Below are positions 3,133 through 10,761 of a DNA stretch of 10,761 bases, piece by piece (the first letter of the stretch is position 1; the number at the start of each line of letters is the position of its first letter). Below the pieces are notes generated by a model. It searched no databases. It was not told the DNA's origin and saw only the letters and a list, made by a program, of their open reading frames with translations. A program made the position numbers and the translations under genes. Source of the DNA: Dehalococcoidia bacterium (GTDB taxonomy: Bacteria > Chloroflexota > Dehalococcoidia > UBA3495); NCBI GenBank assembly GCA_002730485.1, contig PCAH01000085.1, positions 1 to 10,761 on the forward strand, read 5' to 3'.

Positions 3133-4485
3133 CTAGTCGTCACCATAGGCAGGCAGGTCATGCTCTGTGATATCCATTCCTTCCAATTCTTCCTCCTCAG
3201 TGGCGCGGACACCCATGGTGACCTTGAGCAAGGTGAACAATGCGAATCCGGTCACCAGCCCCCAGGCAAGCACCACACCCATGCTGATCAGCTGGGAGAC
3301 GATCTGTTTGCCCTCTCCGACGACCAGACCTTCCACACCGTTGTTGCCGTTGGCGAAGATGCCGACCGCCAACAGTCCCCACAGTCCGGTTACACCGTGG
3401 ACTGAGATGGCACCCACCGGATCGTCGATCTTGAAGACACGCTCGATCACGATTATCGAACCCATCATGATCGGCGCTGCGATGGCACCGATGACCACTG
3501 CGGACCATGGTTCCACGAAAGCCACACCGGCGGTGATACCCACGAGGCCAGCCAATGCACCGTTACAGGACATCAGGATGTCGGTCTTGCCGGTCTGAAC
3601 CAGCTTTATGTACATGGCGACCACCGCACCCGTCGCGCCAGCCAACAATGTGTTGATGGCATTCAAACCGATGGAGTCGCCCGTGTTGATGTTGAACCCG
3701 AACCAACCAAAGAACAGGATGAACGTTCCTATGACCACGTAAGGCACGTTATGTCCGGACAGAACATTGGAGGAGCCGTCCGCGTTGAACTTGCCCAAGC
3801 GTGGGCCAACAACTACCGCACCGGCTAGGGCTACAAAGCCTCCTACCGCGTGGACGACACCGGAACCGGCGTAATCGGCCGCTGCTGGAAGGTCGATCTC
3901 ACTGAGTTGAGACAACCAGCCGCCGCCCCAGACCCAGTGTCCATATAGCGGATAGATGATCGCGCCGACTATGAAGCTGTAGGCCAGATAAGCCTGGGTC
4001 TTGGTCCGCTCGGCTACCGCACCGGCAACGATGGTGGCTGCGGTTCCAGCGAAGACCATCTGGAATACGAAGTCCACATAGGTTTGACCATCGGCCGCAT
4101 CAGTCAGGAAGTAATTTGTGTTTCCCGCGATGCCCATCTCCGATGTACCCCACATCAAAGCGAACCCAAAAGCCCAGAAGGACAACGACGCTATGGCAAA
4201 GTCCAAGAAGCTCTTGGTCATGTAGTTTGTGGTGTTCTTGGCCCTAATCAGGCCTGCCCCCAGGAAAGCGAACCCCGCCTGCATGAAGAAGACCAAGAAA
4301 GCACCCATCATCCAGATGATGTTGGCGTTCTGATCCAATTTGTCCGCATCAGAGGTGATGTCCTGCGCGAACGCCACGCTGTATCCGGTGATTAGCGCAA
4401 CCGCGACAAATCCGGCAACAGCGAAGGGTAAGACCCTCCGAAGTATCCGTGCGCCGTTGGTTTGTGGCGCTGTTTCAACTAACAT
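3133..4485 (-). CDS. amt: Ammonium transporter, Amt family, with signal peptide
   Basis: A second Amt protein, 450 residues. Unlike amt1 it has an N-terminal extension with a basic stretch (residues 13-17), a hydrophobic core (18-38) and an AFA-QD cleavage-like site near residue 40, so it is probably made with a cleavable signal peptide. The channel then begins with NANIIWMMGAFLVFFMQAGF. Pore histidines are H212 (VVHAVGG) and H363 (SVHGVTG), and WFGFN (residues 261-265) carries the aromatic gate. The signature aspartate region reads ADYAGSGVVH rather than DFAGGTVVH. The acidic tail ends in EHDLPAYGDD. The start is fixed by GAGGAGG (4491-4497), 5 nt before the ATG. A regulator array ends about 55 bp upstream, so expression is probably controlled by nitrogen status. 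The protein is clearly divergent from amt1, consistent with a different affinity or regulation. Which amt subtype it is cannot be decided here. Confidence 0.95.
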   Translation of the reverse strand: MLVETAPQTNGARILRRVLPFAVAGFVAVALITGYSVAFAQDITSDADKLDQNANIIWMMGAFLVFFMQAGFAFLGAGLIRAKNTTNYMTKSFLDFAIASLSFWAFGFALMWGTSEMGIAGNTNYFLTDAADGQTYVDFVFQMVFAGTAATIVAGAVAERTKTQAYLAYSFIVGAIIYPLYGHWVWGGGWLSQLSEIDLPAAADYAGSGVVHAVGGFVALAGAVVVGPRLGKFNADGSSNVLSGHNVPYVVIGTFILFFGWFGFNINTGDSIGLNAINTLLAGATGAVVAMYIKLVQTGKTDILMSCNGALAGLVGITAGVAFVEPWSAVVIGAIAAPIMMGSIIVIERVFKIDDPVGAISVHGVTGLWGLLAVGIFANGNNGVEGLVVGEGKQIVSQLISMGVVLAWGLVTGFALFTLLKVTMGVRATEEEELEGMDITEHDLPAYGDD

Positions 4486-6710: not shown

Positions 6711-8927
6711 ATGGGTAATAATCGATGGCTTCGCAACAGCTTTGTGTACCTGATGATCATCATCGGGGTCATAGTCATTTTCTACACGTTGTTGCCCAGC
6801 CTCGGCGCGCGCAGTGAAGAGCCACTGACTACAGTGGTGGCCATGGCCAAGGACAATAACATCCGAGAGATTGTCATTGACGGCCGACAGTTGACCGTTT
6901 TCCCTAGGGGTCTCAGCGCTTCAGGAGCTGACCGGTTTACCAGCCGGATCGGCCGCGATACCGATGTCATAGGATTGTTGGTCGAGAGCGGTGTGGACGT
7001 TGGACCGCCATCCGGTGTTCAGGTGGTTTACAAGGGCTCCAGTGGCCTGAGCAGCTTCTTCGGCATAATGCTCAACTTCCTGCCTCTGATCTTCTTTGGC
7101 GGCCTGATCCTATTCATGATGCGTCAGGCCCAGGGCAGCAATAACCAGACCATGAGTTTTGGCCGCAGCCGCGCCAAAATGATGCCCTTTAACCGACCTA
7201 CCGTGTCGTTCAACGACGTTGCGGGAGTCGAAGAATCCAAGGAAGAACTGTCAGAGGTCGTCGAGTTTCTCAAGTTCCCTGAGCGGTTCCTGGCTTTGGG
7301 TGCCCGCATACCCAAGGGTGTGCTCCTAGTTGGCCCTCCTGGCACAGGCAAGACCCTGATGGCACGAGCAGTTGCCGGGGAAGCCGGTGTGCCTTTCTTC
7401 CACATCAGCGGTTCTGAATTCGTAGAGATGTTCGTGGGTGTTGGTGCCGCTCGGGTCAGAGACCTGTTTGAGCAGGCCAAACGAAACGCACCGTGTATCG
7501 TGTTCGTCGATGAGATCGACGCCGTTGGTCGGCACCGTGGCGCAGGTCTTGGCGGTGGACATGACGAACGTGAGCAGACACTGAACCAGATACTGGTGGA
7601 AATGGACGGGTTCGAGACCAATACCAACATCATTGTGATCGCCGCCACCAACCGACCAGACATCCTGGACCCAGCCCTTTTGCGGCCCGGTCGGTTCGAC
7701 CGACGTGTCACCATGGACCTACCCGATATCGAAGGCCGCAAGGCCATCCTGAAGGTACACGCTTCCGGAAAACCTTTGGCTCCGGAGGTTACCTTTGAAT
7801 CCCTGGCCAAGGAGACGCCCGGTTTCAGCGGCGCGGAACTCTCCAACCTGATAAACGAAGCAGCCATCATGGCCGCTAGAAGCAGTAAGAAACAGATCTT
7901 CATGGACGACTTTGAAGAGGCTGTAGACAGGGTTGTCGCTGGCCCCCAGCGCAAGAACCGGCGAATCAATCCCCGCGAGAAGGAGATGACGGCCTACCAT
8001 GAAGCCGGACACGCTCTGGTCGCCTGGGCCCTTGAATTCGCTGACCCAGTACACAAGATATCGATCGTCGCCCGCGGCCAGATGGGCGGACACACGGCCC
8101 TGGTTCCAGAGGAAGACCGTTACCTGTGGACCAAAAACCAGTTCGCCCACCGAATGGCCGTAACCATGGGCGGAAGGGTGGCCGAGCAGATCATCTTTGA
8201 CGAGGTAACCACCGGTGCCAGTAACGACTTGGAACAGGCGACCAAGCTGGCCATGGGAATGGTCAAACGCTACGGCATGTTCAGCGCAAAGAACTACGAA
8301 GAGATGCCAATCAGTGAGGTCATTGAGAAAGCCCGGGGCGGCCAGATCTCCGCGATCGAAGTCTACGGTAACGACCTCCTTGTGATCATGGAAGACGGCA
8401 CCGAGTTCAGGTCTCGAAAAGAACTTGACTTCCAACTCGCCGAGTTCAACGAAGACTTGATTGCCAAGGGTCAACAAGCAGTCAAGATCATCATCAGAAA
8501 CTCCCACAGCCTCGACGGGCTGGGAGCCCCCAGGACTTTCGGTAAAGCCGAAGAGATGGTGTTCCTAGGACGGGGTTCTGGAGCTGAAGAGAAGGACTAC
8601 GGCGGAAACGTAGGTGAAGAGATCGACCTTGCGGTCTCCGAACTCATCAACAAAGCCTACGAAGACGCGGTGGAAGCAATCACTATCCACCAGCCGAAGC
8701 TTGTCCGCCTGGCGGAATACCTGATTGAGTACGAGACCGTATCCGGCGAGGCCATGAACCGACTGTTCAATGCCGACGACGAGCCTGGTGGAGAACCGGC
8801 CACACCTCCCGTGACACCGGAGACACCGCCGGCCTACAGTCCAACCCCGGAGGACGCAACCCCGGCTGCCAACCCACAACCGGCAGCCACACTGCCGTCA
8901 ACCGCGGCTGCAGACGGCGACGACTAA
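6711..8927 (+). CDS. ftsH: ATP-dependent zinc metalloprotease FtsH with an extra domain in the peptidase region
   Basis: Membrane-anchored hexameric AAA+ protease that extracts and degrades membrane and regulatory proteins. Order of parts in the 738 residues: membrane helix (11-30), extracytoplasmic FtsH_ext domain (about 36-108), membrane helix (about 115-137), AAA ATPase, M41 peptidase, proline-rich tail. Walker A is GPPGTGKT (208-215), the pore loop FVGVG (241-245), Walker B VFVDEID (264-270), the second region of homology [21 protein letters not shown] (312-332). The zinc site is HEAGH (430-434) with D506 in TTGASND, so the catalytic set is complete. After KRYGM (519-523), where the usual text resumes at LGAPRTFG (604-611) and FLGR (618-621), an extra stretch of about 80 residues is inserted that resembles the FtsH_ext domain (see findings). 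The last 48 residues are rich in Pro, Thr and Ala. Longer than typical FtsH (about 600-650) because of insert and tail. It has its own promoter and terminator. Confidence 0.97.
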
Positions 8928-9011: not shown

Positions 9012-9293
9012 CTACTCGGTAGAAGTTTCCTCTTCCTGGGTATCTTCTTGTTCTTTGGGTAATTGCCGGTAGTAGAGGCCCCACTGCTGCATCAGCCCTT
9101 CAACATCTTTATTCCCCAAAGCGCTCAGTTCCCGGAAGAACCCGGCCAGGGCGTGGGCTGAAATATTATTCTTATCGCAAACCCAACTGCGTTCTGCAGG
9201 CACCACATAGATGAGACCCCGTTGGTGTTCACACACCGCTTTGATGCGGGTCATATCGTTTCCCTGGATCACGTCCAAAGCAAAGGTAGTCAT
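9012..9293 (-). CDS. Small hypothetical protein with acidic C-terminus
   Basis: A 93-residue protein of no family I recognise. It begins MTTFALDVIQGND, has a central basic and aromatic part (RGLIYVVPAERSWVCDKNN), a likely helical part (ISAHALAGFFRELSALG), and ends in a strongly acidic tail rich in Glu, Asp and Thr (from about residue 79). No signal peptide or membrane helix, so probably cytoplasmic. Upstream in-frame starts exist (GTG at 9377, ATG at 9365), but a TATAAT (9364-9369) lies right over those codons, while the ATG at 9293 has AAGGA 8 nt before it; I therefore chose 9293. It converges on ftsH and shares its terminator, and hflK starts on the opposite strand beyond its promoter. Position between ftsH and hflK may mean nothing, or may hint at a role near that complex. 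Confidence 0.65.
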   Translation of the reverse strand: MTTFALDVIQGNDMTRIKAVCEHQRGLIYVVPAERSWVCDKNNISAHALAGFFRELSALGNKDVEGLMQQWGLYYRQLPKEQEDTQEEETSTE

Positions 9294-9363
9294 CTGCCAC
9301 GTCCTTAACTGAAGTATGAATGTCATGGCGGGAAAAGTCTGTCGGACCACCACGGCAGGAAGC

Positions 9364-9369
9364 ATTATA
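9364..9369 (-). promoter_or_regulatory. -10 element of the hypothetical gene
   Basis: A perfect TATAAT on the minus strand, placing the transcription start near 9357 and giving a leader of about 64 nt to the ATG at 9293. The -35 is weak (GATTCC at 17 bp). It decides the start codon, because the longer reading would begin upstream of the transcript. Confidence 0.5.
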
Positions 9370-9447
9370 CCCTTCACCCAATTGCGGAATCAGCACCTAC
9401 AGCGGCAGCCTTGCATTCGATACCCGTGAGAAGTAGCTGTGCCTATC

Positions 9448-9693: not shown

Positions 9694-10761
9694 ATGTATC
9701 AACCCGGCGGTGGACCCAGGCAACCCGAAATGGATTTCGAAAAGATCATGGGCGGTATCCGAGACGGCATCGGTCGCTTCTCCCAACGCTTCGGCGGCGG
9801 TGGGATCGGATTGGCGATCGTACTGGTTTTAGGTCTGATTGTCGTCATTTGGGCGGCCTCTGGAATATATACCATCAACCCAGGTGAACAGGCGGCTCTG
9901 CGTCGGTTCGGCTCGGTGCAGGGAAACCCGGAAACCCAGCAAGGTCTGCACTGGTGGTGGCCGGGACCCATCGGCAAGAAAGATGTCGTTTTGACATCTG
10001 AGACTCGCCGTTTGGAGCTTGGATTCCGCAGCGGCGAGAACGTTGCCGATACGCCTGCACCCCTTGAAGCTGAGATGATCAGCGGCGACCTGAATATCGT
10101 AGATGTTCAGATGGTCGTGCAATACGACATCAAGAATCTCACCGACTATCTGTTCAACGTGTCGGACCCAGGGGAGAATGACCGCGGGATCACCGCAGGA
10201 CACCCCGACGGAAGAACCCTCAAAGACGCCTCTGAAGCGGCCCTTCGCTTGGTAGTTGGTCAAAGGTCGATTGACGATGTCCTCACCACAAGGCGTGAAG
10301 AGGTTCAGACGTCCACCAAACAACGGCTACAAGTCATTCTTGACAGTTATGAAGCTGGCATAAACGTAACCAACGTACAGCTTCAGGATGTGAAAGCGCC
10401 TGAAGAAGTACGGGACGCCTTTGATGACGTGCTCAGAGCTCGTCAGGAGCGTGACACCAGAATCAACCAAGCCCGGGCTTACGAGAACGACATCATACCC
10501 AGGGCCAGTGGTAACGCGGAAAGGATCAAGAGAGAAGCTGAAGCATTCGCCCAAGCCAGGGTTGCCAGAGCAGAGGGTGAAGCCCAAGGGTTCATCTCGG
10601 TCTTAGACGAATACAACAAGTCCAAGTTGGCACAGGATGTGACCAGGCAGCGGCTGTACCTGGAAGCCATGGAAGAGATACTTCCAGGAATCTCCAAGAT
10701 CATAGTTTCGCCAGATGCGGAAACGGTACTGGTATTGGGTGACTCGGGCGGCATCGTACCC
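9694..10761 (+). CDS. hflK: HflK, SPFH-domain membrane protein (FtsH regulator), C-terminus cut by window edge
   Basis: With HflC, HflK forms a prohibitin-like cage around FtsH at the membrane and modulates its access to substrates. 356 codons are visible and the frame is open at the edge. It has a Gly-rich cytoplasmic N-terminus (residues 1-37, GGGPRQP and RFGGGG), one membrane helix (about 38-57), then the SPFH/band 7 domain from YTINPGEQAALRRFG (59-73) through QGLHWWWPGPI, VDVQMVVQYDI and the LFNV stretch, followed by a long Ala/Glu/Arg-rich helical region (about 240-320), as in other HflK proteins. Between FNVSDP and AALRLVVG there is an extra loop (about residues 160-181, GENDRGITAGHPDGRTLKDASE) that ordinary HflK lacks or has much shorter. 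The ribosome site AAGGG stands 10 nt before the ATG at 9694. hflC would be expected just beyond the window. Confidence 0.95.
   Translation, partial: MYQPGGGPRQPEMDFEKIMGGIRDGIGRFSQRFGGGGIGLAIVLVLGLIVVIWAASGIYTINPGEQAALRRFGSVQGNPETQQGLHWWWPGPIGKKDVVLTSETRRLELGFRSGENVADTPAPLEAEMISGDLNIVDVQMVVQYDIKNLTDYLFNVSDPGENDRGITAGHPDGRTLKDASEAALRLVVGQRSIDDVLTTRREEVQTSTKQRLQVILDSYEAGINVTNVQLQDVKAPEEVRDAFDDVLRARQERDTRINQARAYENDIIPRASGNAERIKREAEAFAQARVARAEGEAQGFISVLDEYNKSKLAQDVTRQRLYLEAMEEILPGISKIIVSPDAETVLVLGDSGGIVP

Follow-up and report, generated by a model that had tools for sequence, protein, structure and literature searches.

The stretch of DNA analysed here (the window, 10,761 nucleotides of contig PCAH01000085.1, Dehalococcoidia bacterium assembly GCA_002730485.1) encodes a predicted member of the ATP-dependent zinc metalloprotease family FtsH, whose M41 peptidase domain is interrupted by an extra segment. 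This segment, hereafter the insert, is almost certainly a second FtsH_ext domain, homologous to the one at the N-terminus of the same protein. FtsH ranks with the most strongly conserved proteases in bacteria, chloroplasts, and mitochondria, and its layout is generally regarded as fixed.

The ftsH frame is free of stops and translates into 738 residues, which reach 759.2 bits with the whole-protein equivalog model TIGR01241 (NCBIfam cut-off 600). The Pfam domains of the protein are FtsH_ext (47.8 bits in the whole protein), AAA, lid, and M41. The original prediction, made from the letters of the window, described an additional segment at residues 524 to 603 (positions 8280 to 8519) in an FtsH with intact catalytic motifs, and both statements are correct: Walker A lies at residue 208, the pore motif FVG at 241, Walker B at 265, HEAGH at 430, and the ASND third-ligand motif at 503 to 506. 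Protease and ATPase activity and a hexameric assembly are predicted. The Pfam M41 match is interrupted by the extra segment, with the best stretch covering residues 419 to 525 (profile positions 3 to 109), and the alignment to T. maritima FtsH runs up to residue 524, breaks, and restarts at 607.

Searched alone in Pfam, as had been proposed, the segment yields FtsH_ext (Pfam ID PF06480) as its first match (E-value 8.8e-5, 23.1 bits, spanning 68 residues), below the curated cut-off of 25.5. The cut-off is a poor judge of such excised fragments, because true N-terminal ext domains run in the same way score 14.1 bits (the window's own) or give no FtsH_ext match in Pfam (the control fragments of the relatives L119 and L088). 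FtsH_ext was also the top Pfam match for seven of eight further inserts (15.1 to 23.3 bits), the eighth, from L121, giving no FtsH_ext match. The NCBIfam search returned no meaningful match for the insert.

The decisive support for the proposed kinship comes from profile-profile comparison. The inserts of 14 proteins match the N-terminal domains of the same proteins with a probability of 99.7 and an E-value of 4e-25, with 73 match columns in register, and 53 inserts match 74 ext domains from insertless FtsH at 2e-24. Ten column-shuffled controls gave E-values of 0.0041 to 0.53. Six of seven FtsH control segments of similar length stayed at 0.088 to 0.37, and the seventh (residues 461 to 540) matched at 1e-7, which we ascribe to its overlap with the start of the insert. 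The L119 insert, searched over 5.8 billion proteins, matches FtsH of ordinary length (best E-value 4.7e-11). Blastp matches to 38 insertless proteins, which had been found by earlier insert searches of a large protein set, start at residues 28 to 46, that is, in the N-terminal domain; the L119 insert matched all 38, the window insert 27, and six other inserts between 10 and 38. An unrelated alpha/beta insertion that resembles FtsH_ext by convergence or chance is very improbable, as it would have to account for the long in-register profile match with its clean controls and for the direct blastp matches to the N-terminus of insertless FtsH, while genuine N-terminal fragments score no better in Pfam than the inserts do.

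Between the window's own two copies, the seven identities in 24 positions first counted for residues 41 to 64 against 536 to 559 were recovered on rechecking the alignment. Blastp finds no match between these copies, so the kinship is visible only through relatives. The insert profile likewise gave only chance-level hmmsearch matches against PDB sequences, which puts the solved ext domains out of reach by sequence alone.

The structure prediction agrees with the expected fold. In the full-length predicted model, the insert forms an ordered alpha-beta-beta-beta-alpha-beta domain, with the elements in the order modelled for residues 39 to 107 of the same protein (helix 39-47, strands 51-57, 60-65, and 76-79, helix 86-92, and strand 103-107). 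Foldseek with a VIA-align second look, covering Foldseek ranks up to 1000, matches the predicted insert to the FtsH_ext structures PDB ID 2muy, 4v0b, 4m8a, and 2lna, and the modelled insert has the fold of these solved ext domains. Lying inside the M41 domain without a flanking membrane helix, the insert is related to FtsH_ext but occupies another site, and in topological terms it does not count as an FtsH_ext.

Among 80 related loci from one-genome-per-species data, the segment is present in one (L001, SAR202 OSU_TB47), 77 have four or five residues instead, and two (L021 and L033) are truncated or divergent there. The insert is often absent from close orthologues: L002 (81% identical) and L090/L165 (89% identical, with the same flanking genes), the nearest orthologues that lack it, read straight through GMSxxLGPRTFG in the alignment. 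Because close relatives pass directly through this motif and 77 of the loci are short at the site, the segment does not belong to the variable regions normal for FtsH, in line with the original prediction.

A wider pool of 238 rows of related proteins and loci, which are not independent since some genes are kept both as a protein and as a locus, holds 91 rows with 80 to 86 residues over the segment, 144 with two or three, and three unclear ones, including L133, where the contig end falls inside the segment. Seven duplicate loci and the chimeric record P0039 were dropped from this pool. The P0039 "response regulator" appears to combine parts of Sir2, of FtsH with its insert, and of a receiver, and is probably an assembly error. 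Nearly all sequences are metagenomic, and such an apparently chimeric deposited protein could suggest an assembly or binning artefact behind the insert as a whole, but this is scarcely conceivable, since the 91 rows carry the segment on contigs of up to 3.0 Mb, and since it recurs on dozens of contigs from several sources, with the frame open throughout and signs of purifying selection.

In the order of genome G001, 18 of 250 genomes match the insert profile at an E-value of 1e-20 or below. The class sample gave nine matches in 393 genomes at 1e-15 or below (five over the whole profile, three through the N-terminal domain only, and one cut by a contig end), and the single match in the phylum sample of 400 genomes is G001 itself. 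Some records of this Chloroflexota FtsH are named Dehalococcoidia or SAR202. The possibility that an insertless paralogue does the normal work was tested: the insert-bearing FtsH is the sole M41 protein seen in 14 of 17 genomes (genome completeness not given), and a second, insertless M41 protein occurs in three (G209, G302, and G373).

The duplication is old, being common to FtsH of about 60% identity. An origin of the insert by recent gain within the clade of the window was ruled out, as it is also found in FtsH 58 to 60% identical to the window's and the inserts cluster in the tree. In this tree, built from 179 ext-type domains, a single branch (SH-aLRT 98) separates the 53 inserts from the rest, and they fall among the ext domains of this FtsH group, a nesting that depends on the root, the tree being a midpoint-rooted quick search over 74 columns with long-branch warnings. 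A single origin of the insert is very likely, given this tree support. The core tree without the insert columns, built from 53 rows with the insert (near-copies removed) and 75 without (the first 75 of 78 passing the filters), shows nine presence/absence changes, four of them forced by well supported branches. One old gain followed by several clean losses would explain this most simply; horizontal spread of the segment or exchange between lineages may stand in place of loss. In P0047, P0049, P0050, P0109, and L127, an ordinary insert accompanies a highly divergent N-terminal ext domain (branch 1.27).

The insert appears to be under purifying selection. Over eight gene pairs, nonsynonymous differences (pN) amount to 0.15 to 0.25 versus 0.47 to 0.86 for synonymous ones (pS). 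The dN/dS ratio, computable in four of the eight pairs with pS saturated in the other four, is 0.126 for the window versus L001, 0.113 versus L088, and 0.30 and 0.41 in two other pairs. The insert evolves more rapidly than the N-terminal domain in seven of the eight pairs and faster than the AAA part in all of them. G553, D555, E571, and L604 are invariant in the 53 inserts, L557 is found in 52, and Y552 in 49, with F in three more; at positions 552, 555, and 557, the letters of ext domains are mostly polar and variable. The hairpin with Y552, D555, and L557 may represent a new contact surface, and this pattern of conservation makes a selected function of the insert probable.

An ext domain accidentally duplicated into a loop that bears insertions could also persist as a tolerated passenger, folded to avoid aggregation and without a job. 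Its repeated clean absence from close orthologues, its faster evolution than the N-terminal copy, and the short loop at the insertion site would fit such a passenger, but we consider it rather unlikely, because the insert has been kept across FtsH of about 60% identity and fold-keeping alone need not create its specific conservation. From the sequence data, a selected function is more plausible than a passenger, and the other readings are not separated.

The position of the insert in the protease ring was estimated from human AFG3L2 (PDB ID 6nyy), of which residues 289 to 749 align with model residues 149 to 690. By our count, M523 of the window protein would lie within a few residues of AFG3L2 M666. 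Published accounts place this residue in a protease-domain pocket between subunits (PMC13134353) and among the "central protease protrusions" bearing SCA28 substitutions, where M666R abolishes assembly (PMC12994072), with G671 and S674 given as further disease sites (PMC11236935). Because M523 aligns near M666, the insert would sit at the foot of the ring's central protrusions, in six copies per hexamer. The original prediction placed it beside the exit or side openings; orientations into the chamber, into the cytosol, or sideways would be alike possible. By family topology, the copy would act across the membrane from the original ext domain, because the M41 domain is cytosolic.

At this site, the insert could serve as an assembly clamp, extending to the protease domain next to it and keeping the peptidase ring joined. 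Relative to AFG3L2, the insertion falls at about M666 to G671, where M666 occupies an inter-subunit site and M666R is described to stop assembly (PMC12994072, PMC13134353), the ClpX E-domain offers a precedent (PMC12994072), and the insert has new conserved hydrophobic positions. The insertless orthologues are presumably hexameric without it, however, and we regard a clamp as unlikely.

As the best explanation, towards which we lean, the N-terminal FtsH_ext domain of a Chloroflexota FtsH would have been duplicated into the M41 loop after the third zinc ligand helix and kept as an accessory element for docking and gating. The ends of FtsH_ext should lie side by side, because the domain hangs between two membrane helices, and this would suit it to insertion into a short loop with the peptidase unbroken. 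The copy would have kept its fold and gained its own conserved hairpin, which would contact the ring, a neighbouring copy, a partner, or a substrate, and the insert would tune the choice of cytosolic proteins and the exit of peptides. Docking and gating as the particular mechanism are put forward tentatively. Binding of HflK by the insert was dropped as the main reading, given that the same gene order occurs with insertless FtsH and that the copy would lie across the membrane.

The E. coli FtsH_ext domain is described to have C6 symmetry (PMC13097134), so that six inserts near the axis could build a second hexameric crown at the membrane-distal mouth of the peptidase ring, an arrangement we consider doubtful. 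The protease would then have an ext ring at either end: the outer ring would serve membrane substrates and regulators, and the inner ring would act as a lid or as a platform for docking, controlling peptide exit and cytosolic partners. If true, a membrane-side module would have been re-used across the membrane within the same polypeptide by domain duplication.

Table 1. Features of the window, with nucleotide positions, strand, and supporting evidence.
Feature	Position	Strand	Evidence
ftsH, ATP-dependent zinc metalloprotease with two FtsH_ext-type domains, 738 aa	6711..8927	+	ORF translation, Pfam, NCBIfam
First transmembrane helix, residues 4-27	6720..6791	+	Helix in full-length model; hydrophobic sequence
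N-terminal FtsH_ext (original), residues 36-109, extracytoplasmic by family topology	6816..7037	+	Pfam FtsH_ext 11-98; model
Second transmembrane helix, residues 114-141	7050..7133	+	Helix in full-length model
AAA ATPase domain, residues 204-336	7320..7718	+	Pfam AAA 161.2 bits
M41 peptidase, first part with HEAGH and ASND ligands, residues 419-523	7965..8279	+	Pfam Peptidase_M41 419-525 (profile 3-109); motifs
Inserted second FtsH_ext-like domain, residues 524-606 including linkers	8280..8528	+	Pfam, alignments, profile-profile, model
Insert domain proper, residues ~530-601	8298-8513	+	Part of inserted FtsH_ext-like domain
Insert-specific hairpin, residues 552-558 (Y-G-N-D-L-L-V)	8364..8384	+	Alignment column counts
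M41 peptidase, second part, residues 607-690, starting with PRTFGK...FLGR	8529..8780	+	Aligned to T. maritima FtsH 526-607; relatives' second M41 stretch
121-aa ORF, convergent to ftsH	9012-9377	-	No Pfam or NCBIfam match
HflK, known FtsH modulator, just downstream of ftsH, runs off window end	9694-10761	+	TIGR01933 237 bits, cut-off 159.4
Glutamine synthetase, then two different ammonium transporter genes, near ftsH	2-1291, 1467-2681, 3133-4485	-	Nitrogen cluster

The HflK proteins of L163, L164, and L165 carry an in-frame insertion of about 180 to 200 residues near the C-terminus (between window HflK residues 308 and 316), which is absent from the HflK of the window and of L162; in L163, it includes two similar D-N-A-D-G-D-type stretches. 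In 12 of the 18 loci compared, four of which lack hflK in the stretch covered, a homologue of the 121-residue open reading frame (ORF) occurs no more than about 3 kb from ftsH, which makes this ORF a conserved, as yet unnamed neighbour of FtsH. A search of the window for RNA families (gathering threshold) and for tRNAs found none.

No title or abstract start in the open-access literature searched describes an ext domain duplicated into the peptidase part of FtsH. The finding suggests that a whole domain can be accommodated, with activity kept, in the loop at the foot of the central protrusions, the site of clustered disease mutations in AFG3L2, if the sole FtsH found in most of these genomes works as inferred. 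Orthologues of up to 89% identity with and without the domain form a natural experiment in which the roles of the loop and of the ext domain can be tested.

The closest known proteases are FtsH, i-AAA, and m-AAA (TIGR01241; E. coli FtsH, T. maritima FtsH, YME1, and AFG3L2). In the solved FtsH compared, the third-ligand helix leads to LGPxxxG via a short loop, whereas the window FtsH carries a whole ext-type domain there. FtsH_ext of the Pfam family and its solved structures lies between membrane helices; the insert, in contrast, is part of the cytosolic peptidase domain, shows a conserved Y-G-x-D-L-L hairpin of its own, and scores below the Pfam cut-off. Chains of the chloroplast Ycf2-FtsHi motor complexes (PDB ID 8xqw, 8xkv, and 8xku) and of the Orf2971-FtsHi complex (PDB ID 8xks), the subunit being unspecified in each case, also match the insert; the Ycf2-FtsHi complexes are plant and algal, unlike the insert-bearing Chloroflexota FtsH. 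The human ClpX E-domain resembles the insert in being a lineage-specific domain within an AAA+ protease component, and it is described to reach the neighbouring subunit, but it is located in the AAA module and, in the account consulted, is not described as a copy of a domain of the same protein (PMC12994072).
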